Assembly (NCBI RefSeq): GCF_013276795.1
Contig: NZ_VMLR01000003.1
Span: forward strand, 186,001 to 250,000
Length of the DNA: 64,000 bases
Origin: Streptococcus sp. 2342
GTDB lineage: Bacteria; Bacillota; Bacilli; Lactobacillales; Streptococcaceae
Direction: 5' to 3'
In this document: positions 9,401-27,780 of the stretch, one piece after another
Layout: the number at the start of each line of letters is the position of its first letter
Numbering within the stretch: position 1 is the stretch's first letter
The notes under the pieces: model-generated
Database searches by the model: none
What the model was told of the DNA's origin: nothing
What the model saw: only the letters and a program-made list of their open reading frames with translations
Position numbers and translations under genes: made by a program

Positions 9401-11350
9401 ATGTCTCATATTATTGAATTGCCAGAGGTGCTGGCAAACCAAATCGCGGCTGGAGAGGTCATTGAACGTCCTGCCAGTGTGGTCAAAGAGTTGGTAGAAA
9501 ATGCTATTGACGCGGGTTCTAGTCAGATTATCATTGAGATTGAAGAGTCTGGTCTCAAGAAGATTCAAATCACAGATAATGGTCATGGAATTGCCCACGA
9601 TGAGGTAGAGCTGGCTCTGCGTCGTCATGCGACCAGTAAGATAAAAAATCAGGCAGATCTCTTTCGGATTCGGACGCTTGGTTTTCGTGGTGAAGCCTTG
9701 CCTTCTATCGCTTCTGTTAGTGTTTTGACCCTTTTGACGGCGGTGGATGGTGCTAGTCATGGAACCAAGTTAGTCGCGCGTGGGGGTGAAGTTGAGGAAG
9801 TCATCCCAGCGACGAGTCCTGTGGGAACCAAGGTTTGTGTGGAGGACCTCTTTTTCAACACGCCTGCTCGCCTCAAGTATATGAAGAGCCAGCAAGCAGA
9901 GTTGTCTCATATCATTGATATTGTCAACCGTCTGGGCTTGGCCCATCCTGAGATTTCTTTCAGCTTGATTAGTGATGGCAAGGAAATGACGCGGACAGCT
10001 GGGACTGGTCAACTGCGACAAGCAATCGCAGGAATTTATGGTTTGGTCAGTGCCAAGAAGATGATTGAAATTGAGAACTCTGACCTAGATTTCGAAATTT
10101 CAGGTTTTGTGTCCTTGCCTGAGTTAACTCGAGCCAACCGCAACTATATCAGCCTCTTCATCAATGGTCGTTATATCAAGAACTTTTTACTCAATCGTGC
10201 TATTCTTGACGGCTATGGTAGTAAGCTTATGGTAGGCCGTTTTCCACTGGCTGTCATTCACATCCATATTGACCCCTATCTAGCGGATGTCAATGTGCAT
10301 CCAACCAAGCAAGAGGTGCGGATTTCCAAGGAAAAAGAATTGATGGCCTTGGTCTCAGAAGCTATTTCTAATAGTCTCAAGGAGCAAACTTTGATACCTG
10401 ATGCCTTGGAAAATCTTGCCAAATCGACTGTGCGTAATCGTCAAAAGGTGGAGCAGACCATTCTCCCACTCAAAGAAAATACTCTCTACTATGAGCAAAC
10501 AGAGCCGACAAGACCTAGCCAAGCTGAGGTGGCTGATTATCAGGTTGAATTAACTGAGGAAGGGCAGGACTTAACCCTGTTTGCAAAGGAAACTTTAGAT
10601 CAGTTAACCAAGCCAGCAAAACTGCATTTTGCAGAGAGAAAACCTGCTAACTATGACCAACTAGACCATCCAGAGTTAGATTTAGCCAGTCTGGATAAAG
10701 CCTATGATAAGCTAGAGCGAGAAGAATCTTCAAGCTTCCCAGAGTTGGAATTTTTCGGGCAAATGCATGGGACCTATCTCTTTGCTCAAGGGCGAGATGG
10801 ACTCTACATCATAGACCAACATGCGGCTCAGGAACGGGTCAAGTATGAGGAGTACCGTGAAAGCATTGGTGATGTTGACCAGAGCCAGCAACAACTCCTA
10901 GTGCCCTACATCTTTGAATTTCCAGCGGATGATGCTCTGCGTCTCAAGGAAAGAATGGCACTTTTAGAGGAAGTGGGCGTCTTTCTAGCAGAGTACGGAG
11001 AAAATCAATTCATCTTACGCGAACATCCTATTTGGATGGCAGAGGAGGAAATTGAGTCAGGTATCTATGAAATGTGCGACATGCTACTCTTGACCAAGGA
11101 AGTTTCTATCAAGAAATATCGAGCAGAGTTGGCTATCATGATGTCCTGCAAGCGGTCTATCAAGGCCAATCATCGTATTGATGATCATTCAGCTAGACAA
11201 CTCCTCTATCAGCTTTCTCAATGTGACAATCCCTATAACTGTCCCCACGGACGTCCTGTTTTGGTGCATTTTACCAAGTCGGATATGGAAAAGATGTTCC
11301 GACGCATTCAGGAAAATCACACCAGTCTCCGTGAGTTGGGGAAATATTAA
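9401..11350 (+). CDS. mutL: DNA mismatch repair protein MutL (HexB)
   Basis: 649 aa, full length. The N-terminal GHKL ATPase motifs are present: [21 protein letters not shown], and [11 protein letters not shown] transducer domain follows (residues ~200-330), then a variable linker and a C-terminal dimerisation domain carrying [12 protein letters not shown]. That matches the endonuclease-type motif DQHA(x)2E(x)4E. MutL couples mismatch recognition by MutS (HexA) to strand removal. RBS AGAAAGGGGCTGAAA. It heads a repair cluster with ruvA and tag. Confidence 0.96.
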
Positions 11351-11365
11351 ACTAAAAGGAAAACT

Positions 11366-11959
11366 ATGTACGAATATTTAAAAGGAATCATTACCAAAAT
11401 TACTGCTAAATACATTGTTCTTGAAGTCAACGGTATCGGTTATATTTTGCATGTGGCCAATCCCTATGCCTACTCAGGTCAGGTCAACCAAGAAGCTCAA
11501 ATTTATGTGCATCAAGTTGTACGTGAGGACGCCCATCTACTTTATGGATTTCGCTCAGAAGACGAGAAGAAGCTCTTTCTCAGTCTGATTTCGGTTTCTG
11601 GGATTGGTCCTGTATCAGCTCTTGCTATTATCGCTGCTGATGACAATGCTGGCTTGGTTCAAGCCATCGAAACCAAGAACATCACCTACTTGACCAAGTT
11701 CCCTAAAATTGGTAAGAAAACAGCCCAGCAGATGGTGCTAGACTTGGAAGGCAAGGTAGTAGTTGCAGGAGATGACCTTCCTGCCAAGGTGGCAGTGCAA
11801 GCTAGCGCTGAAAACCAAGAATTGGAAGAAGCTATGGAGGCCATGTTGGCTCTGGGATACAAGGCAACAGAGCTCAAGAAAATCAAGAAATTCTTTGAAG
11901 GAACGACAGATACAGCTGAGAACTACATCAAGTCGGCCCTTAAAATGTTGGTCAAATAG
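11366..11959 (+). CDS. ruvA: Holliday junction DNA helicase subunit RuvA
   Basis: 197 aa. The N-terminal OB fold ([26 protein letters not shown]) is followed by two helix-hairpin-helix motifs ([14 protein letters not shown] and [16 protein letters not shown]) and a C-terminal RuvB-binding three-helix domain ending [11 protein letters not shown]. It forms the tetramer that holds Holliday junctions for RuvB-driven branch migration. It lies 15 bases after mutL and 9 before tag, so the three are one operon. ruvB is not nearby, as usual in streptococci. Confidence 0.96.
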
Positions 11960-12989: not shown

Positions 12990-14024
12990 TTATTTTTTGT
13001 TATAGTCAAAGCGAATGACTTGCTCCTGTGCATCTACATGGGCATGGACGCCAAAGGGGACAATTGCTCTTGGAGTTGCGTGGCCGACATTTAGATTATA
13101 GAGAATCGGAATATTGCTGTCAATAATATCCAATAGTGCCTCTTTATAGTCGTCATAGAAAGTTTCATCCATAGGTTTTCCGACCAGGAGTCCACTGATG
13201 GCCTCGAATATACCAGTGTTCTTTAAAGTCTGCAACATCTTTTTGAAGTCTTCCGGCTCAGGCTTTTCTTCGCTTGTTTCTAGTAAGAGGATTTTGCCTT
13301 CCCAGTCTGACAAGTCAGGGAAAAGTTTGTATTTTTGACAGAGCTCCGTGCTATCTGCGTATCGAGAGTTGTCAAAGATATCGTAGAGGGATTCGAGGCA
13401 GCCACCGAGGATTTTCCCCTCGAACTGTGCATTTCCTTGCAACAACTCAAAGCCGGTATTTGCATGACTGATACGAGGTGTTCCCAGAGCCTTGGGACTG
13501 AAATCAGTCCTTTCATCATACCAAACGTCACTAGGCCGGATTTCTGAGATTCTTCCCGTCTCAATCAATTCTTTAAAGTAGTGAAGGCTATAGGCTAACA
13601 TTTCTTTGTCTAATTCACAAATGTCTGCTAAGAAGGATTGACCATAAAAAGTCTTGATTCCTAGTTTATGCAACATGAGATGGTTCATGGTTGTATCCGA
13701 GAAGCCAAGAAAAATTTTTTGTTTGATAACCTTTTGTAGTTGGTTATTTTCAAAAAGATAAGGCAACAAACGATAGGTATCGTCTCCACCGATGGCACAT
13801 AGGATCATATCGATGCTATCATCAGAAAAGGCATGAATCAAATCCTCTGCACGAGCTTCAGGATGGTCCTTGATAAAGTCTAAGCCTTTTAACGAATGGG
13901 GCAAAAAGATAGGATTGAGTCCCAGATCCTTGAGACGTTGGACACCTAAGTCTACTTCGTGTTTGACAAAGTCCTCTCCGATAATGCCACTAGACAAACT
14001 AACAATACCAATAGTAGAAATCAT
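12990..14024 (-). CDS. S66 family peptidase (LD-carboxypeptidase / MccF-like)
   Basis: 344 aa. The N-terminal half has the nucleophile-elbow region ILCAIGGDDTYRLLPYL. The C-terminal half has GKILGGCLESL (Glu of the triad) and the His region NLNVGHATPRAIVPFG. Family members cleave L,D bonds of wall tetrapeptides or inactivate microcin C-like nucleotide-peptides. The residue where S66 enzymes carry the nucleophile Ser (GGxxS) appears to be Thr here. RBS TAGGAGGATAAAAT. A single leftward gene; its product is cytosolic, as there is no signal peptide. Confidence 0.85.
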   Translation of the reverse strand: MISTIGIVSLSSGIIGEDFVKHEVDLGVQRLKDLGLNPIFLPHSLKGLDFIKDHPEARAEDLIHAFSDDSIDMILCAIGGDDTYRLLPYLFENNQLQKVIKQKIFLGFSDTTMNHLMLHKLGIKTFYGQSFLADICELDKEMLAYSLHYFKELIETGRISEIRPSDVWYDERTDFSPKALGTPRISHANTGFELLQGNAQFEGKILGGCLESLYDIFDNSRYADSTELCQKYKLFPDLSDWEGKILLLETSEEKPEPEDFKKMLQTLKNTGIFEAISGLLVGKPMDETFYDDYKEALLDIIDSNIPILYNLNVGHATPRAIVPFGVHAHVDAQEQVIRFDYNKK

Positions 14025-15871: not shown

Positions 15872-15937
15872 AATAAATCTAACAAAAATCCTGTTGCTAT
15901 TGGATTTTTACTTTGTCTTGAAATGTTGATTTTTAAA

Positions 15938-15959: not shown

Positions 15960-17126
15960 CTATAGTGCTTTTAGTGCAGTTTCGTAGAATGATACTGCTT
16001 TTTTTGCGTTCTCTTTTGAGAGGTGACTATATATATCCATGGTCATTGATAAAGTGGAATGACCTAGGCGGTACTGGAGTTCCTTGTATGGTATTCCAGA
16101 GTTAAGCAAGAGACTAGCGTGAGTGTGACGGAATCCATGAAAGCCAATGTTAGGAACATCAGCACGCTTAAAATGTGTTTGCAATCTTCTTTTAAGTCTT
16201 GAACTGCTAGGATACTCATGAATGAAATCAGAAAATACCACGCTTTCACGTTGTCCTATCTTCCAAGCCTCTTTAGTTTGGCGCAGTTTGTACTGCTTTA
16301 GCATGCTAACAGTCGCTTGATCTATATCTATATCCCGATAACTAGCCTTAGATTTTGGGCTATTGATTTCTAGATCCCGATTTAGTGTTTTGGTAATATG
16401 TACAACGGCATTATCTAAGTCAATATCAGACCAGCTAAGCGCTAGAGCCTCATTGATACGGCAACCAGTAGCCAATAGGAACTTATAGAGCGTCGTCTCA
16501 TAGTAATAACGGTATCTATGAGTATCTAAATTATCGAGATAACCAAGAAATTTTTTTAGTTCTTGATTTTCAAAGTGCTTTACTTTTTTCCGCTTTGCTT
16601 TCTGAGTGTTACGAGGTAAAATAACATCACGCGCAGGATTGGACGGTATAGCTTGCATGGTTACGCCATACTGTAAGATACGTTTGTTTAAAGCATGTAT
16701 CTTGTCATAGTGTAGAAAAGCCCCTTTTTCCCCTCTATTAGTCTTGTCAGCAAGTTCGTTGATAATTGACTGGATAAGTGGAGTAGTGAGCTTATCGAGC
16801 TTGTAAGTCCCCAAAATAGGCAATATATGATTATCGATTAGCTTTCTAACATTGCCTTGAGTGTTTGGCTTAACCGTATTCTTATAACTTTCTAACCAGA
16901 GATTGGCTAATTCTTGATAGTTTTTTATGGTGCTAGCCTTTTGTCTAGTAGATCCTGCTTTTTGAAAAGCTATTTTTTCTTGATTGGCTTTCTGTTTTAA
17001 TTCCTTTTGTGTCCGACCTGTTACCTTGGTTTTGACTTTCTTTCCTGTTACCTGGTCAACTCCTAGATATACATTAGCACGATAGACTTTACTACCGTCT
17101 TTTTTTATAACTTCAGTTATTTTCAT
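15960..17126 (-). CDS. int: Tyrosine recombinase / island integrase
   Basis: 388 aa. The N-terminal arm-binding domain (MKITEVIKKDGSKVYRANVYLGVD) is followed by a SAM-like core-binding domain (~65-165) and a catalytic domain. Catalytic residues are visible: Arg in LATGCRINEALALSW, His-x-x-Arg in GFHGFRHTHASLLL, and the Tyr nucleophile in MDIYSHLS. It performs site-specific integration and, with an excisionase, excision of the 15843-27717 element. RBS AGAAAGGTTTAAATC. Its stop lies 93 bases from attL, the usual place for an integrase. Confidence 0.95.
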   Translation of the reverse strand: MKITEVIKKDGSKVYRANVYLGVDQVTGKKVKTKVTGRTQKELKQKANQEKIAFQKAGSTRQKASTIKNYQELANLWLESYKNTVKPNTQGNVRKLIDNHILPILGTYKLDKLTTPLIQSIINELADKTNRGEKGAFLHYDKIHALNKRILQYGVTMQAIPSNPARDVILPRNTQKAKRKKVKHFENQELKKFLGYLDNLDTHRYRYYYETTLYKFLLATGCRINEALALSWSDIDLDNAVVHITKTLNRDLEINSPKSKASYRDIDIDQATVSMLKQYKLRQTKEAWKIGQRESVVFSDFIHEYPSSSRLKRRLQTHFKRADVPNIGFHGFRHTHASLLLNSGIPYKELQYRLGHSTLSMTMDIYSHLSKENAKKAVSFYETALKAL

Positions 17127-17309: not shown

Positions 17310-18323
17310 TTAAAGTTTTTTATCGTCAGTTAGCTGTTTTAAAGTTTTTTCAAAGTCCGAGTTTATCTTTTGAGTTTTGTTGAATAGTTGGTACTCTGCT
17401 TTTGCTTTATCTTTCGCAACCTTGGAAGTGATTTTCCCATGACCTTCTAAAATATCGTATTCTTGGAAAGTCAAAAAGCGGTCAATGCTTTGGGCTAGTT
17501 GTTGCATTGTCTGAGCTTTTCGCTGTTCTATCTGTCTTTCCAGATAATCAAAATAGCTAGATATTCCTCTTTCAAGGGAACGGATTTCTGTTTCTGAAAG
17601 GTAATTCTTTGCTATTTGGGTATCTGCTTGCAGTATGCGACCATTAGGGGAGTTTTTCCATGTTGTAAGTCCCATGTTGTCTTTTGTATGGTCAGCTTTC
17701 GTGTAGATAATTTCCGCAGCAGTTTGGCCAGTGATTGCATAATGAAACTTATTCTGTACATCAGCATAGAATTGCTTAGTCAACGTACTTTGTGGATCAT
17801 AGTCAATAGAAATTTCTGCAAAAATATCTGTAATCTGCAACCATATACGACGCTCACTAGCCCGGATAGAACGCACGCGCTCCAACAGCTCACGGAAATA
17901 GTCTTTTTCCAGCAAGTTTTCGCCTTGTTTCAGACGGTTGTCATCCATGGCGAACCCTTTTATCATGTACTCACGAAGTACTGAAGTAGCCCACTGTCTA
18001 AATCTCGTAGCTTTTTGGGAATTGACACGGTAACCAACTGAAATGATGGCGTCAAGGTTGTAGTAGCTGACATCCTTAGTTTGGGTTTTATCAGCAATTG
18101 CACCGTGTTTTGTGGTTATTTCCATTTTGGAAACAACCACCTTTTCTTCTAATTCGCCCTCTTCAAAGATATTTTTTAGGTGTTTACTAATTGCAGGAAC
18201 ACCGACATCGAAAAGTCTAGCCATTTCTTTCTGACTAGCCCAGATAGTTTCGCCTTTGATGATGACACTAGCTGTCTCGCTATCATTATCAGCGGTATAG
18301 ATTAAGAATTGTAATTCGTTCAT
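17310..18323 (-). CDS. RhuM-like protein (virulence-associated RhuM family)
   Basis: 337 aa from the ATG at 18323, preceded by AGAAAGGATCTC; the 17-codon longer frame has no ribosome site. The N-terminal region has a helix-turn-helix-like segment (IWASQKEMARLFDVGVPAISKHLKNIFEEGEL). The family block DVSYYNLDAIISVGYRVNS and KATRFRQWATSVLREY follows, then a long helical C-terminus. RhuM proteins occur in pathogenicity islands, prophages and defence-associated positions; their activity is not established. Here it lies between int and the repressor, an accessory cargo position. Confidence 0.85.
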   Translation of the reverse strand: MNELQFLIYTADNDSETASVIIKGETIWASQKEMARLFDVGVPAISKHLKNIFEEGELEEKVVVSKMEITTKHGAIADKTQTKDVSYYNLDAIISVGYRVNSQKATRFRQWATSVLREYMIKGFAMDDNRLKQGENLLEKDYFRELLERVRSIRASERRIWLQITDIFAEISIDYDPQSTLTKQFYADVQNKFHYAITGQTAAEIIYTKADHTKDNMGLTTWKNSPNGRILQADTQIAKNYLSETEIRSLERGISSYFDYLERQIEQRKAQTMQQLAQSIDRFLTFQEYDILEGHGKITSKVAKDKAKAEYQLFNKTQKINSDFEKTLKQLTDDKKL

Positions 18324-18401
18324 GAGATCCTTTCTAAAATATTGTAAGTGGTTGACATTTGTTGACATCAACAAAATTGGTAGATATGGGGCTTATATAG
18401 T

Positions 18402-19660: not shown

Positions 19661-20407
19661 ATGAAGAGGAACTATACAAGGGTCATTGATGAAATGCGAA
19701 CCACTCATGGGCTGAACTTGGTAGCTATTGGCCAACGGATAGGAATAGATCCCCGAACAGTTGGTAAGTGGGCACAGGGCAAACATAAGCCCAACAAGGA
19801 AAGCAGGAAGCGACTAAACAAGTTATACAGAGAGGTCAAGCAAGACATGACAACACAAGTAAGTATTTTTGAAGAGACAACAGACCAAGGGCAACTATTA
19901 CAGGTTGTTACTACTACTATTTTCCACGGTCAAGCGTTGGATATCTACGGAGATTTTGACAACCCACTTTTTAGAGCTGGGGAGGTTGCTAGAATGATTG
20001 ACTACTCAAATAGTAGTTTGAGCAAGTTTCTTGAAATGGTAGACCAAGACGAAAAGGACAAGAAGAAAGTTCTTACCCCTGGAGGCGTTCAGCAAGTCTG
20101 GTTTTTAACTGAGCAAGGATTATATGAGATTCTATTCCAATCACGCAAACCAAAAGCTAAAGAGTTTAAGAAATGGGTTAAGCAAGTATTAAAAGATATT
20201 AGGCAACAAGGTTACTACATGGATGGGGAACTGGTGGAAGAACCACAGACCACTATAAAAGCCCCTGACACGTTGGCAGAGGCAGAGCGGTATTATATCG
20301 ATACACTAGCCAAAGCCATTGCAGAGGCTAAAAATATGGACGAGAAGAGCCGTCTGACAAGCAAGCTAACCCGATTCATGCAGGAGGTAGAACCACAATG
20401 GAATTAG
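19661..20407 (+). CDS. Bro-N domain antirepressor-like protein with N-terminal HTH
   Basis: 248 aa. Residues ~1-60 hold a helix-turn-helix (LVAIGQRIGIDPRTVGKWAQGKHKPNKESRKRL). Residues ~75-190 are a Bro-N domain (FHGQALDIYGDFDNPLFRAGEVARMIDY ... GLYEILFQSRKPKAKEFKKWVKQVLKDIR, quoted in parts). A helical tail follows. Bro-N proteins are common phage antirepressors, so it may lift CI-like repression or regulate early genes. RBS AAGAAAGGCAGGCAAGCA. Overlaps the next gene by 10 bases. Confidence 0.82.
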   Translation: MKRNYTRVIDEMRTTHGLNLVAIGQRIGIDPRTVGKWAQGKHKPNKESRKRLNKLYREVKQDMTTQVSIFEETTDQGQLLQVVTTTIFHGQALDIYGDFDNPLFRAGEVARMIDYSNSSLSKFLEMVDQDEKDKKKVLTPGGVQQVWFLTEQGLYEILFQSRKPKAKEFKKWVKQVLKDIRQQGYYMDGELVEEPQTTIKAPDTLAEAERYYIDTLAKAIAEAKNMDEKSRLTSKLTRFMQEVEPQWN

Positions 20408-21024
20408 TCTACATGGACGGCAAGAAAGAGCCGTATACGCTGAGTAGTATTGTGGCAGAATGCACGGGATTGCAACATCACACAATAACCAAGACGATCC
20501 GCAAACATCAAGCAAGGTTTGAACAGTTCGGAAAGGTTGGATTTAAAATCCAAGCTATGGAGAGTGGCCAGAATACCAAGGACTATATTTTGAATGAGCA
20601 ACAAGCGACCTTGTTAGTTACATTCTTAAAGAATACCGAGCAAGTGGCTAACTTCAAAACCAACCTAGTCAAAGCATTCTTTGAAATGCGTGAGGAGCTT
20701 TCTAAGTTTCGTATGCAGAGGGCGCTAGAAAAGCCAAAAAGAAAAACACTGCATGACAGTATTGAGACATGGCTTAATGCACCCAAGCACGCGCATAGCA
20801 CCATGAACAACCTGCTACTGAAGGCAGTAACTGACAGGAACGCTAAGCAGTTAAGGGAAGAACGTGGGGGCTATAATGGCATTGATAGCTTGACCAGTGA
20901 CGAGCTGGAGCAATATCAGGCATTTGAAGATATGGTAATAGCCATGATTGGCTTGAATATGAGTTACCAAGAAATCAAGGCTATGGCATTCAGAAATAAA
21001 AAAACACGCCAAAGAAGCGCGTGA
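20398..21024 (+). CDS. Rha-family phage regulatory protein
   Basis: 208 aa. The N-terminal half matches pRha: TLSSIVAECTGLQHHTITKTIRKH, then YILNEQQATLLVTFLKNTEQVANFKTNLVKAFFEM in the conserved order. The C-terminal half is helical with an HTH-like end (MSYQEIKAMAFRNKK). Rha proteins are phage regulators that interfere with growth in some hosts. Its start overlaps the Bro-N gene by 10 bases, so the two are translated together. Confidence 0.82.
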   Translation: MELVYMDGKKEPYTLSSIVAECTGLQHHTITKTIRKHQARFEQFGKVGFKIQAMESGQNTKDYILNEQQATLLVTFLKNTEQVANFKTNLVKAFFEMREELSKFRMQRALEKPKRKTLHDSIETWLNAPKHAHSTMNNLLLKAVTDRNAKQLREERGGYNGIDSLTSDELEQYQAFEDMVIAMIGLNMSYQEIKAMAFRNKKTRQRSA

Positions 21025-25048: not shown

Positions 25049-25330
25049 AATGTTACCTTCTTTTTATGCCCTAAACCCTTGGTATATCTAGGTTTTTACC
25101 CAAAAATGTTACCTTCTTGTTACCTTGTTTAGAAAGAAGGTAACGTTGTCAAACCCTTGATACTACTGACTTTTTTGGGAAAATGTTACCTTGTTTTTAA
25201 CTCTCTATATAGGGAAAAAATAGTATTTTTATATATAAGGGCTATGACTTCAAAAGAAGGTAACATGGTAACAAAAGGGTCTAAACCCTTGGGGGAGTAA
25301 GGCTGAACTATGTTACCTAGAAGGTAACAA
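25049..25330. other. Putative replication origin with GTTACCTT iterons
   Basis: Nine GTTACC-type repeats flank an AT-rich core at ~25193-25250. Forward copies are at 25052, 25108, 25119, 25185 and 25312. Reverse copies are at 25137, 25257, 25265 (partial) and 25321. A second repeat, AAACCCTTG, occurs near 25072, 25151 and 25283. Placement right after the primase-helicase genes and the iteron/AT-rich/iteron plan match satellite-phage origins such as those of SaPIs. The 361-bp gap to 25409 has no coding sequence. Confidence 0.75.
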
Positions 25331-25409
25331 AATGGGGTAGATAGTACCGACCCCCTTGCAATGGTGTAACTACTAGTGACACCCTTAAAACAGAAAGAGG
25401 AAAAACAAC

Positions 25410-25931: not shown

Positions 25932-26055
25932 TAAATACAGGACGGGGAGCAATCCCCTTTTTGTTAACAAGTCAATAGTTTTGGTTTTTTCCATATAGGG
26001 GGAGATAGTGAAGTAGTTGCAATTTACCAAACGAACACCGTAGAAAGGATGCAAT

Positions 26056-26370
26056 ATGGAACGTGATAGCCGAGGGAGATTTTTACCAGGCAACCAAGTA
26101 GCAAAAGGCAACAGGGGCAACAGAAAGCCAAAATATGGCAATAGCAACGCTTTGAAGCATGGACTGCGTAGAGGATATACTGGACTGTTACCAAGCCGAA
26201 AAGGTGGGGTGTCTATATATAAAAATGGTGCATATCTTGGAGCGCTATCAGGCAAGTATTTCCACCATTCTGAAGATGGAGCGCTTTGGGTAGATTATAG
26301 TGCTTGTCAGTATTTGATTTCAGCTTGTGGCTTTCCTGAATCTATGTTTAGCGAACCAGAAGAATGGTAA
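26056..26370 (+). CDS. Small protein resembling the N-terminus of phage small terminase proteins
   Basis: 104 aa. The first ~38 residues (RDSRGRFLPGNQVAKGN, GNRKPKYGNSNALKHGLR) have the basic, Gly/Asn-rich start seen in some phage terminase small subunits and related DNA-binding proteins. The remaining part (residues ~40-104) looks like a small mixed domain with several Tyr and one Cys-containing end. Too short for a full TerS. It could be a satellite packaging-redirecting protein or a truncated gene. RBS GAAAGGATGCAAT. Confidence 0.5.
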   Translation: MERDSRGRFLPGNQVAKGNRGNRKPKYGNSNALKHGLRRGYTGLLPSRKGGVSIYKNGAYLGALSGKYFHHSEDGALWVDYSACQYLISACGFPESMFSEPEEW

Positions 26371-26381
26371 GGGTGTACATA

Positions 26382-26408
26382 CTTGAACTCCGAGCGAACG
26401 CCGAGAAA
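26382..26408. repeat. Dispersed ~28-bp island repeat, copy 2
   Basis: CTTGAACTCCGAGCGAACGC then CGAGAAA. Confidence 0.4.
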
Positions 26409-26423
26409 GTGGCCATATCCCCC

Positions 26424-26765
26424 TATCATTTATCAAGCAGATAAGGACGACAATAAGCCTTCTTAATTGCTTGCAAAACGATAGGGAGTTAAGACGAATT
26501 TAAAAGCTCCTTATTTTCGTTTTTCTCCTTACAAAATGACAGGGAAATAAGAACTAAAATAACTCCCCTTATTTTCCTACCAAATGATAAGGAGATAAGA
26601 GCAGTTTAAAAGTCTGTTATTTTGGATTTGTTGCTTACCAAATGATAAGCAGATAAGCAAAGAAATAACTTGCCTTAATTGCTTGCAGAATGACAAGGAA
26701 ATAAGGGAGATAAAAACGTCCCTTAATTGCCTATCAAACCATAAGGAGATATGGGGGCTATCTCC
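26424..26765. repeat. Tandem hairpin array with alternating 48- and 58-bp units
   Basis: Units start at 26462, 26510, 26568, 26616, 26674 and 26722, with a partial unit before 26462. Unit lengths are 48, 58, 48, 58, 48. Each begins CTTAATTGC or CTTATTTTC (GTTATTTTG once), has an AAATGATAAGGAGATAAG-like centre, and folds back through CTTAT/ATAAG arms. Long and short units resemble each other within their class, so the higher-order period is 106 bp. Confidence 0.8.
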
Positions 26766-26825
26766 CTCCCCACGCGCTTCTATGAGCTTCACACCGTCAT
26801 TGTACATTTTTTCTCACGGGAAAGC

Positions 26826-26853
26826 ATTTGAAGCTAGAGCGAACATAGAGAAA
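26826..26853. repeat. Dispersed ~28-bp island repeat, copy 3
   Basis: ATTTGAAGCTAGAGCGAACA then TAGAGAAA. Confidence 0.4.
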
Positions 26854-26924
26854 TAGCAAAAAAAGCCAAGGCGCTCCACCTCAGCTATAATCTCAATAAT
26901 ATTATATCATGAAGGAGCGAACTA

Positions 26925-27317
26925 ATGGAGCTGGATAAGTTTAAAACGATGATGAACGTCAGAGAGAGGATGACATACTTTCTGAGATTCCAGAGGATGG
27001 CAGGGAGTGAAAACCAAGTTAGTATCGATGAAGAGGCTTGGAAACTTGTCTTACCTGATCAGTGGAATTTGAGTGGTGAACATGAAAAAGCAATCCGTGA
27101 GGGGTTGGAAATATTCGCCAACGATATCAATAAGATAGAGAACAAGCGAGCCAGAAAATACTTTATTATCCATTATTGCTACATGAGGAAGAAAACAATG
27201 AGTGAATGCGTAGAGATGGCAGGTACTAGCTCCACTAGCTACCACCGATACAAACAGGTAGCCGTCTTAAACTTTGCGAGAATCCACCAGAACGGAGAGC
27301 TAGAAGCATATAAGTAG
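26925..27317 (+). CDS. ArpU-like phage late transcription regulator
   Basis: 130 aa, all-helical, with a C-terminal HTH (KKTMSECVEMAGTSSTSYHRYKQVAVLNFA, quoted in part) and a YFIIHYCYM segment before it. These match the ArpU/RinA-like regulators that end the late-control region of Gram-positive phages. In an island without structural genes it may control packaging-related or exported signals. RBS GAAGGAGCGAACTA. Last gene before attR. Confidence 0.65.
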   Translation: MELDKFKTMMNVRERMTYFLRFQRMAGSENQVSIDEEAWKLVLPDQWNLSGEHEKAIREGLEIFANDINKIENKRARKYFIIHYCYMRKKTMSECVEMAGTSSTSYHRYKQVAVLNFARIHQNGELEAYK

Positions 27318-27399
27318 GTAAATGTAGGCTGAGGCTTCATATTCGCCCCCTATTTTGCTTTGTTTCGTACTGGACAACTAAAACACCACGGACAAACTA

Positions 27400-27436
27400 C
27401 AAGCCCTCAGAAACGAATCTGGGGGCTTTTGTGAGG
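27400..27436 (+). terminator. Terminator after the ArpU-like gene
   Basis: AGCCCTCAGA / TCTGGGGGCT with TTTT, a ten-pair stem with one G-T pair. Confidence 0.8.
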
Positions 27437-27463
27437 TCATAATCTTATAAACCACGCGCTTCA

Positions 27464-27571
27464 TGGTATAATATACCTATCAGCAACCAGCAATAAAAAA
27501 AGCACGTTTGACCGTGCTAGTTTCTTGCCTGCTGAACTCGTTAAATCTTAGCCCTTTTGTGGGGCTTTTTT
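27464..27571 (+). ncRNA. Candidate short transcript at the island right end
   Basis: Extended -10 TGGTATAAT (hexamer 27467-27472). From about 27479 the sequence holds hairpin AGCACG-TTTGAC-CGTGCT (27501-27518). It ends in AGCCC...GGGCT with six T (27550-27571). About 93 nt, no reading frame. It overlaps the attR arm region, so it may simply be part of the attachment site. Confidence 0.35.
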
Positions 27572-27602
27572 GCTCCCCTTTTTGCGTACTTTTGGGGAGC
27601 AA
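27569..27602. repeat. Putative integrase arm sites, right end
   Basis: The 17 bases TTTGCTCCCCTTTTTGC (27569-27585) are identical to 15938-15954. An inverted copy GGGGAGCAA follows at 27594-27602. Confidence 0.5.
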
Positions 27603-27692
27603 GTAGTAAAAAGTAATGTTAGTGTTTTTTGTTCAAAAGCGCGTGATATAAGGGTTAGGAAGCCCTAAGAAAACATAAAATAAGAAGTTTTT

Positions 27693-27717
27693 TATTATAC
27701 TACAAAATCGGCCTTTT
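27693..27717. repeat. attR: 25-bp integration repeat, right copy
   Basis: Exact copy of 15843-15867. It lies 27 bases before the uvrA -10. Confidence 0.92.
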
Positions 27718-27740
27718 GGGTAATAGAATCTCACTTTTTT

Positions 27741-27749
27741 TGGTATAAT
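27741..27749 (+). promoter_or_regulatory. Extended -10 promoter of uvrA
   Basis: TGGTATAAT (hexamer 27744-27749), 32 bases before the uvrA ATG. It lies outside the att core, so it is kept with or without the island; sequence beyond about -50 is island-derived. Confidence 0.6.
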
Positions 27750-27780
27750 GGTAAGCAATAATGGACTAGAAAGAACAAAG

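Follow-up and report, generated by a model that had tools for sequence, protein, structure and literature searches.

The survival of phage satellites depends on their being packaged instead of the helper phage. Phage lambda places several terminase-binding repeats, the R-sites of cosB, beside its cut site. A helper-like cos is carried by SaPIbov5, a cos-type SaPI (PMC5052747), and two putative cos sites were reported for StCI-301, a satellite of S. thermophilus (PMC13376191). In SPP1 and SF6, the small-terminase gene begins within pac, and short direct repeats in pac are candidate small-terminase sites (PMC4737164). Satellites with a helper-like cos and pac regions with repeats at the start of terS are already known. 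In the HNH-associated cos of the r1t/phiLC3/SM1 type, a G-run/C-run element precedes CTTCAC.CCGTCA.TGTACATTTTTTCTC, the sequence located at the annotated cohesive ends.

Here we describe a repeat array beside a candidate cos of the latter type, located in a phage satellite within a 64-kb stretch of Streptococcus DNA (the window). While the R-sites of lambda are three short repeats on one side of the cut, the array studied here is built of up to ten dyad units of 48 or 58 bp. Like SaPIbov5 and StCI-301, the window satellite carries a helper-like cos, but the accessible portions of both reports mention neither a tandem dyad array nor a bracketing pac-like motif (PMC5052747, PMC13376191). The pac of SPP1/SF6, in the available description, holds three sets of direct repeats instead of the dyad units, and its model needs intrinsically bent DNA (PMC4737164). 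The intrinsic curvature predicted for the window array from wedge values is not above that of shuffled sequences, and we discarded a role of curvature as in the SPP1 model. A literature search, confined for the most part to papers free of subscription, returned no description of the array or of a cos-bracketing pac-like motif in streptococcal satellites.

The island extends from an integrase gene (15960-17126, minus strand) to uvrA at 27748, which lies beyond its right end. It carries a primase/D5-helicase module, and none of the 15 island ORFs scanned with PHROGs belongs to a capsid or tail family. The terminal integrase, the replication module, the lack of capsid and tail families and a size of approximately 10-15 kb place it among the phage satellites of the PICI type (Streptococcus satellite phage, Javan type). 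The gene plan is shared with the Streptococcus satellite phages Javan309 and Javan742 and with MissG2, which likewise adjoins uvrA, and all satellite relatives of the window are found in Streptococcus. A RhuM-family gene (17310-18374, minus strand) and two anti-repressor/Rha-family genes (19661-20407 and 20398-21024) are also present in the island.

The array is flanked by two genes. The protein encoded upstream matches the terminase small subunit family phrog_1889 over residues 10-36 (E 1.3e-4) and NCBIfam NF040601 (E 4.6e-4, with a score of 19.9 against a cut-off of 120), and none of the Pfam families. The downstream gene product matches the transcriptional activator family phrog_248 (E 2.1e-9) and TIGR01637 phage_arpU (E 1.3e-7, score 31.9, under the cut-off of 43.1).

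Features of the array and its surroundings in the window
Feature	Position	Strand	Remarks
Small gene upstream of the array	26056..26370	+	104-aa protein with similarity, over a short stretch, to the N-terminal region of phage small terminases
Left pac-like motif TTGAACTCCGAGCGAACGCCGAGAAAG	26383..26409	+	Core GAGCGAAN4GAGAAA at 26392-26408; two 11-bp repeats
Array	26424..26757	+	Six of ten canonical units (3, 4, 7, 8, 9, 10) and end sequences
Box of unit 3	26441..26466	+	
Box of unit 4	26489..26514	+	Long, 58-bp unit
Box of unit 7	26547..26572	+	
Box of unit 8	26595..26620	+	Long, 58-bp unit
Box of unit 9	26653..26678	+	
Box of unit 10	26701..26726	+	Last box
G-run/C-run element of the cos region, GGGGGCTATCTCCCTCCCC	26753..26771	+	Similar element before cos in SM1, phiLC3 and most of the listed cos-bearing contigs
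Candidate cos core CTTCACACCGTCATTGTACATTTTTTCTC	26787..26815	+	Homology to annotated cohesive ends
Right pac-like motif GAGCGAACATAGAGAAA	26837..26853	+	Core matches the window and genome scan
Intrinsic-terminator-like hairpin, leftward	26864..26886	-	Terminator scan; just right of the right motif
ArpU-like late transcription regulator	26925..27317	+	Profile matches

The presence of the repeat array, noted in the first-pass annotation, is confirmed: a repeat search and Tandem Repeats Finder both recovered it. Six copies of a constant 26-bp box, WTAAG-N16-CTTAW, start at spacings of 48, 58, 48, 58 and 48 bp. The exact pattern occurs five times in the window, always within the array, while 0.41 occurrences are expected and none of 100 shuffles reaches five. 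The remaining box, at 26595, ends in GTTAT and therefore misses the exact pattern. Between the boxes sits a 22-bp inner dyad (8 + 7 + 7 bases), in which a fixed AA is flanked by T.C.T to one side and by A.G.A to the other. In the long units, 10 extra bases separate the box from the inner dyad, a difference corresponding to approximately one helix turn.

When the array alone was used as the query against the phage collection, 40 records matched, comprising 38 named satellites, MissB2 and MissG2; sequences were retrieved for 23 of them, including Javan309, as well as for Javan742, which has no units. With the array and its left flank as the query (E <= 1e-8), 28 of 284 genomes of the genus were hit, including the window's own, a few of them through the flank only. 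Across the order, the hits were limited to 4 of 295 genomes (again including the own one), all Streptococcus, and no array copies were found in the other genera among the 74 covered. The family is seen only in Streptococcus phage satellites and in relics of them. The 69 loci with hits collapse to 49 distinct arrays once identical ones are merged (loci with and without an array are numbered with the prefix L below).

The boxes fall into ten types. The order 1 to 10, interrupted only by gaps, is preserved in each of the 44 arrays that have more than one unit, and the number of units per array ranges from 1 to 10. Of 233 spacings, 115 are 58 bp, 111 are 48 bp and 7 have other values, so that 226 have exactly one of the two standard lengths. 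Within a type, units from different satellites share 95.2% identity, compared with 64.5% between types. The order and identity of the units indicate that the array is old, diversified before the satellites spread, and was later shortened by deletions that were nearly always in register. All ten units are retained in 10 of the 40 non-relic distinct arrays, in hosts including S. mitis, S. oralis, S. pneumoniae and S. hohhotensis.

The regular alternation in the window had been interpreted as a 106-bp higher-order repeat made of two related hairpins, which should persist in related islands. It does not. The canonical spacing order is 48 58 48 58 58 58 48 58 48, and strict alternation is seen in only 4 of the 30 arrays with at least three spacings, the window included; we therefore rejected the higher-order repeat. 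The array of the window consists of canonical units 3, 4, 7, 8, 9 and 10, and deletions in register have produced its alternation by chance.

At the lower end of the series, the elements L085, L122 and L176 have the same flanks and the motif-cos-motif arrangement without a single unit, so the array is dispensable at least in these three. In L176 (approximately 11457-11672) and L122 (approximately 11240-11455), 11-bp tandem repeats with AGGT-type units, a repeat cluster distinct from the array, are found 160-375 bp before the left motif. Nine loci with one to three units (L014-L017, L019, L022, L024, L149 and L174) were classed as relics. Seven of the relics share a left flank and are probably decayed satellites at one chromosomal place; five of these (L015, L016, L017, L019 and L149) have rpsD within the fetched 3 kb, L014 and L174 complete the group, and units 8-10 are mostly what remains. 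Distant copies were also searched for. The pattern ATAAGSAGATAAGN16CTTA gave 15 hits in IMG/VR, the best of which reached E 0.23 with a model of the unit. At E < 0.01, the same model found no units in 134 of 135 loci (EJ-1, Javan316, SM1, phiLC3, 97 cos loci, 19 motif loci and the 15 pattern hits); only the satellite L079 gave a match.

A candidate terminase cut site of the SM1/phiLC3 type begins 60 bp after the last box of the window. The 13 bases at 26788-26800 align with the annotated cohesive ends of SM1 (15892-15904) and phiLC3 (13308-13320), with two differences, and the region 26755-26815 matches the annotated cos feature of SM1 over 61 bp (79.4%, E 3e-4). SM1 and phiLC3 differ from the window in having no array units and in carrying an HNH gene directly upstream of cos. 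In the window, neither of the neighbours of cos encodes an HNH protein, so a helper would have to supply this endonuclease.

Among the 49 distinct arrays, 29 have a cos that starts 60 bp downstream of the last box, and two have it on the opposite side (L148 and L167). Nine of the 18 arrays without cos are relics, leaving 9 of 40 non-relic arrays with no cos nearby. Among the 31 cos sequences read next to arrays, 16 have the form of the window, 11 have lost the same single base within the cohesive stretch and 4 carry other changes; the 15 altered sites may be impaired. The cos pattern itself is more widespread, with 97 stretches in IMG/VR, only L079 of which has array units by the unit model. 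Half-sites reach a density of 27.5 per kb for the window and 35 per kb for Javan309. No enrichment is seen at 66 distinct array-less cos sites, with 4.2 half-sites per kb near cos and 3.6 farther away.

Array and cos are bracketed by two copies of a pac-like motif. Its core, GAGCGAAN4GAGAAA, occurs twice in the window, where 0.01 occurrences are expected, and these are the only copies in the whole 1.99-Mb genome. In EJ-1 and Javan316, the core is found inside the ORF at the terS position, which overlaps the start of the large-terminase gene (terL); in EJ-1 it occupies codons 15-21 of this gene, which immediately precedes terL. This EJ-1-type gene is terS by position only, and its profile match is phrog_2412, a family without an assigned function. 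A longer form of the motif was found in 20 IMG/VR stretches, seven of which have it in the terS-position gene. The other 13 are contigs of 5 to 14 kb with the motif mostly outside long ORFs, and no matches to the EJ-1 terS or terL were found on them. Synonymous differences in the terS-position gene amount to 10/390 codon comparisons over codons 1-26, 124/445 over codons 27-60 and 51/250 over codons 61-85, in a comparison of six sequences whose pairs are not independent. Their scarcity over codons 1-26 suggests that the DNA itself is kept. The motif may be a pac-type recognition word, of which satellites carry a non-coding copy.

The motif keeps set distances to the array. The left copy is present in 34 of the 49 arrays, and in 33 of these its start lies 48-51 bp ahead of the first box. 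Where the right copy accompanies a downstream cos (26 arrays), it starts 109-122 bp beyond the last box. In 16 arrays it occurs without cos, starting 36-38 bp after the last box in 14 and at 60 bp in L009 and L021. Both motifs and a downstream cos are found together in 22 of the 49 arrays, and both motifs without cos in seven more. In several relatives, an A-run and a hairpin similar to the leftward terminator of the window are seen at the same position; the right motif and this terminator may travel together. Near the motif in the seven EJ-1-like loci, half-sites are not enriched (1.4-4.6 per kb). Elements without the array were also scanned for comparable arrays around the motif, and only short repeats of about two copies were returned (Tandem Repeats Finder on 22 loci, repeat search on six stretches). 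The elements L060, L074, L086, L102 and L108 carry no array and have the motif approximately 710 bp ahead of a cos of the same type.

We compared the genes of 51 elements by clustering; the counts are rough, as several of the array-less elements are short or incomplete contigs. Among the 16 satellites with at least four units, no gene family is universal (integrase in 15, excisionase-like in 14 and rep in 9), and a satellite-specific gene is therefore an unlikely partner of the array. The one other family present in 15 of the 16 proved to be an antisense reading of the array itself and was set aside. In another lineage (L013/L205, L159, L164 and L170), a small gene stands immediately before the array; upstream of this gene, L013/L205, L159 and L164 encode a 124-aa protein. 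Terminase-small-subunit families are matched only weakly by this protein (E 0.0028), and with a best E of 3.1e-8 by a homologue in L023 that shares 45% identity with it.

It was claimed in the first-pass annotation that the units are hairpins whose stems keep pairing while the bases differ. The block does fold better than shuffled sequences as a single strand (z -5.7 for the plus-strand RNA, -6.9 for the minus-strand RNA and -4.6 for DNA), and the arms pair at the consensus level. We then asked how well the arms pair within individual units, using 62 distinct inner dyads and 57 distinct boxes, as well as 13 + 12 representatives. The inner dyads form 294 Watson-Crick pairs, compared with 299.2 +/- 6.5 when the arms are dealt across units, and the box arms form 385, compared with 390.7 +/- 7.8. 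Arms of one unit thus pair no better than arms of different units, contrary to the claim. Pairing is not lost as such, yet it is not kept up by paired changes. The mismatches show no excess over the shuffle means (inner dyads, G-T 66 and A-C 37 against 64.1 and 36.4; box arms, 21 and 74 against 29.8 and 80.9), so neither strand is singled out.

The lack of covariation is what would be expected of double-stranded sites. Across the consensuses of nine units, with a mean identity of 64.5%, 16 of 48 columns are identical, while 6.0 (star phylogeny, P 0.0002) or 9.3 (tree, P 0.017) are expected at equal rates. The half-sites were thus kept while the units diverged, and the array looks like a series of symmetrical double-stranded recognition sites and not like a selected fold. 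Present-day constraint is not seen in orthologous units, where new bases arise at 0.167 per opportunity in conserved and 0.159 in variable columns. Variable sites are fewer in conserved columns (29/171, compared with 76/261 in the others, P 0.004), but this deficit vanishes once bases present in other units are set aside.

We propose that the block is the remnant of a ten-unit, double-stranded protein-binding array within a composite packaging-initiation region of Streptococcus PICI-type satellites. Each unit presents paired inverted half-sites, WTAAG and CTTAW at a fixed 16-bp gap, together with the inner dyad. Once the helper has induced replication, the array would be coated by a packaging protein that binds DNA, most likely a small terminase or an accessory protein, and would in this state help terminase to start at the adjoining cos or at the flanking pac-like motifs. 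Such a platform is the most economical function that we can assign, and we hold it tentatively, at somewhat less than an even chance, as it is deduced from location. The set distances between array, cos and motif point in this direction, as do the independence of the array from replication and activator type and the small-terminase homologue encoded in the gene pair before the array in the other lineage. The match of cos to annotated cohesive ends, the conserved half-sites and the scarcity of synonymous differences around the motif in EJ-1-like phages count in favor as well. A pac/cos-like signal had been guessed at this place from the start; the guess was correct for the neighbourhood, with cos after the last box and a pac-like motif on both sides, while for the array itself a signalling role is something we infer.

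The main difficulty of a packaging function is that the boxes are absent from phages with the same cos or motif. As the array-less cos sites and the EJ-1-like loci are not enriched in half-sites, a helper small terminase would not meet the boxes on its own genome. The binder would then be an unrecognized satellite or host protein, or a helper protein of relaxed specificity. The absence of recent extra constraint on the boxes and of curvature above shuffles also speaks against packaging, as do the satellites without a single unit, the altered cos sequences and the non-relic arrays with no cos nearby.

Two of the alternatives are serious rivals. The array could be a cluster of operators for the late activator encoded downstream, controlling late transcription or titrating the activator of the helper. 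An ArpU- or DUF1492-type gene is found within 1.5 kb downstream of 41 of the 49 arrays (22 ArpU and 19 DUF1492, with only a fragment in L015) and often begins approximately 200 bp after the last box, while the eight arrays without it have one to three units and all belong to the nine relics. The DUF1492-type protein weakly resembles sigma-70 region 4 (E 1.3e-4, below the cut-off), and in phiLC3 a putative transcriptional activator lies just before the HNH gene and cos. However, the type of activator switches while the array remains unchanged, and Javan742 retains an ArpU-type gene with zero units. Where a downstream cos is present it separates the array from the activator gene, and so does the leftward terminator in the window; a simple scan found no promoter-like sites from 26323 to 27767. 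We consider operators unlikely, with a chance that still deserves attention. The same standing is given to a decaying passenger, an old expanded repeat that lost its function and shrinks by recombination between units. Unit numbers ranging from one to ten, losses that are nearly all in register, the zero-unit satellites and recent changes that do not avoid conserved columns all agree with decay. The persistence of ten units in a quarter of the non-relic arrays from several species does not, and neither does the constancy of the boxes while the rest of the units diverged.

A structured RNA or DNA hairpin array, made from a late transcript and acting as a decoy or guide, would account for the strong folding energies of both strands. 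The flanking genes read rightward, and no rightward terminator-like site was found by the scan from 25957 to 27501. The missing covariation argues against such an array, both strands fold about equally well with mismatches that favor neither, and no Rfam family matches at the gathering threshold; we regard it as improbable and dropped the assignment as a structured RNA. The suggestion of a second replication origin or Rep-binding cluster fared worse still. Its spacing is iteron-like, and the array shares its element with the primase/D5-helicase module. Against this, a different word, AATGTTACCTTCTT, follows the rep gene at 25049-25409, and the array accompanies different replication modules: the rep family of the window occurs in 9 of the 16 satellites with at least four units, and three fetched array satellites have a DnaI-type loader in its place. 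With a word unlike the rep-adjacent repeats and no single rep type, the units were not accepted as Rep-binding iterons of the island, and we give this reading very little credence.

Returning to the packaging platform, it is conceivable, though doubtful, that the right end of the satellite is a dual packaging port. Pac-like motifs of the EJ-1 type bracketing an SM1-like cos would then serve two unrelated classes of helper, and the array would be a loading platform exclusive to satellites that gives them an advantage over helper DNA. If a packaging role is true, a satellite-only array of fixed order, kept at a constant distance from cos and flanked by pac-like motifs, would constitute a new cis-acting layer of packaging piracy. 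The natural variants with 0 to 10 units form a ready series for dose-response experiments, and GAGCGAAN4GAGAAA is a cheap handle for finding satellites and the helpers they use.

The region at 25049-25409, directly after the D5-helicase gene, contains AATGTTACCTTCTT / GAAGGTAACAT as a repeated word in both orientations. It is likely an origin with Rep iterons, and it is mildly more curved than shuffled sequences, 3.5% of 200 shuffles being equally curved.
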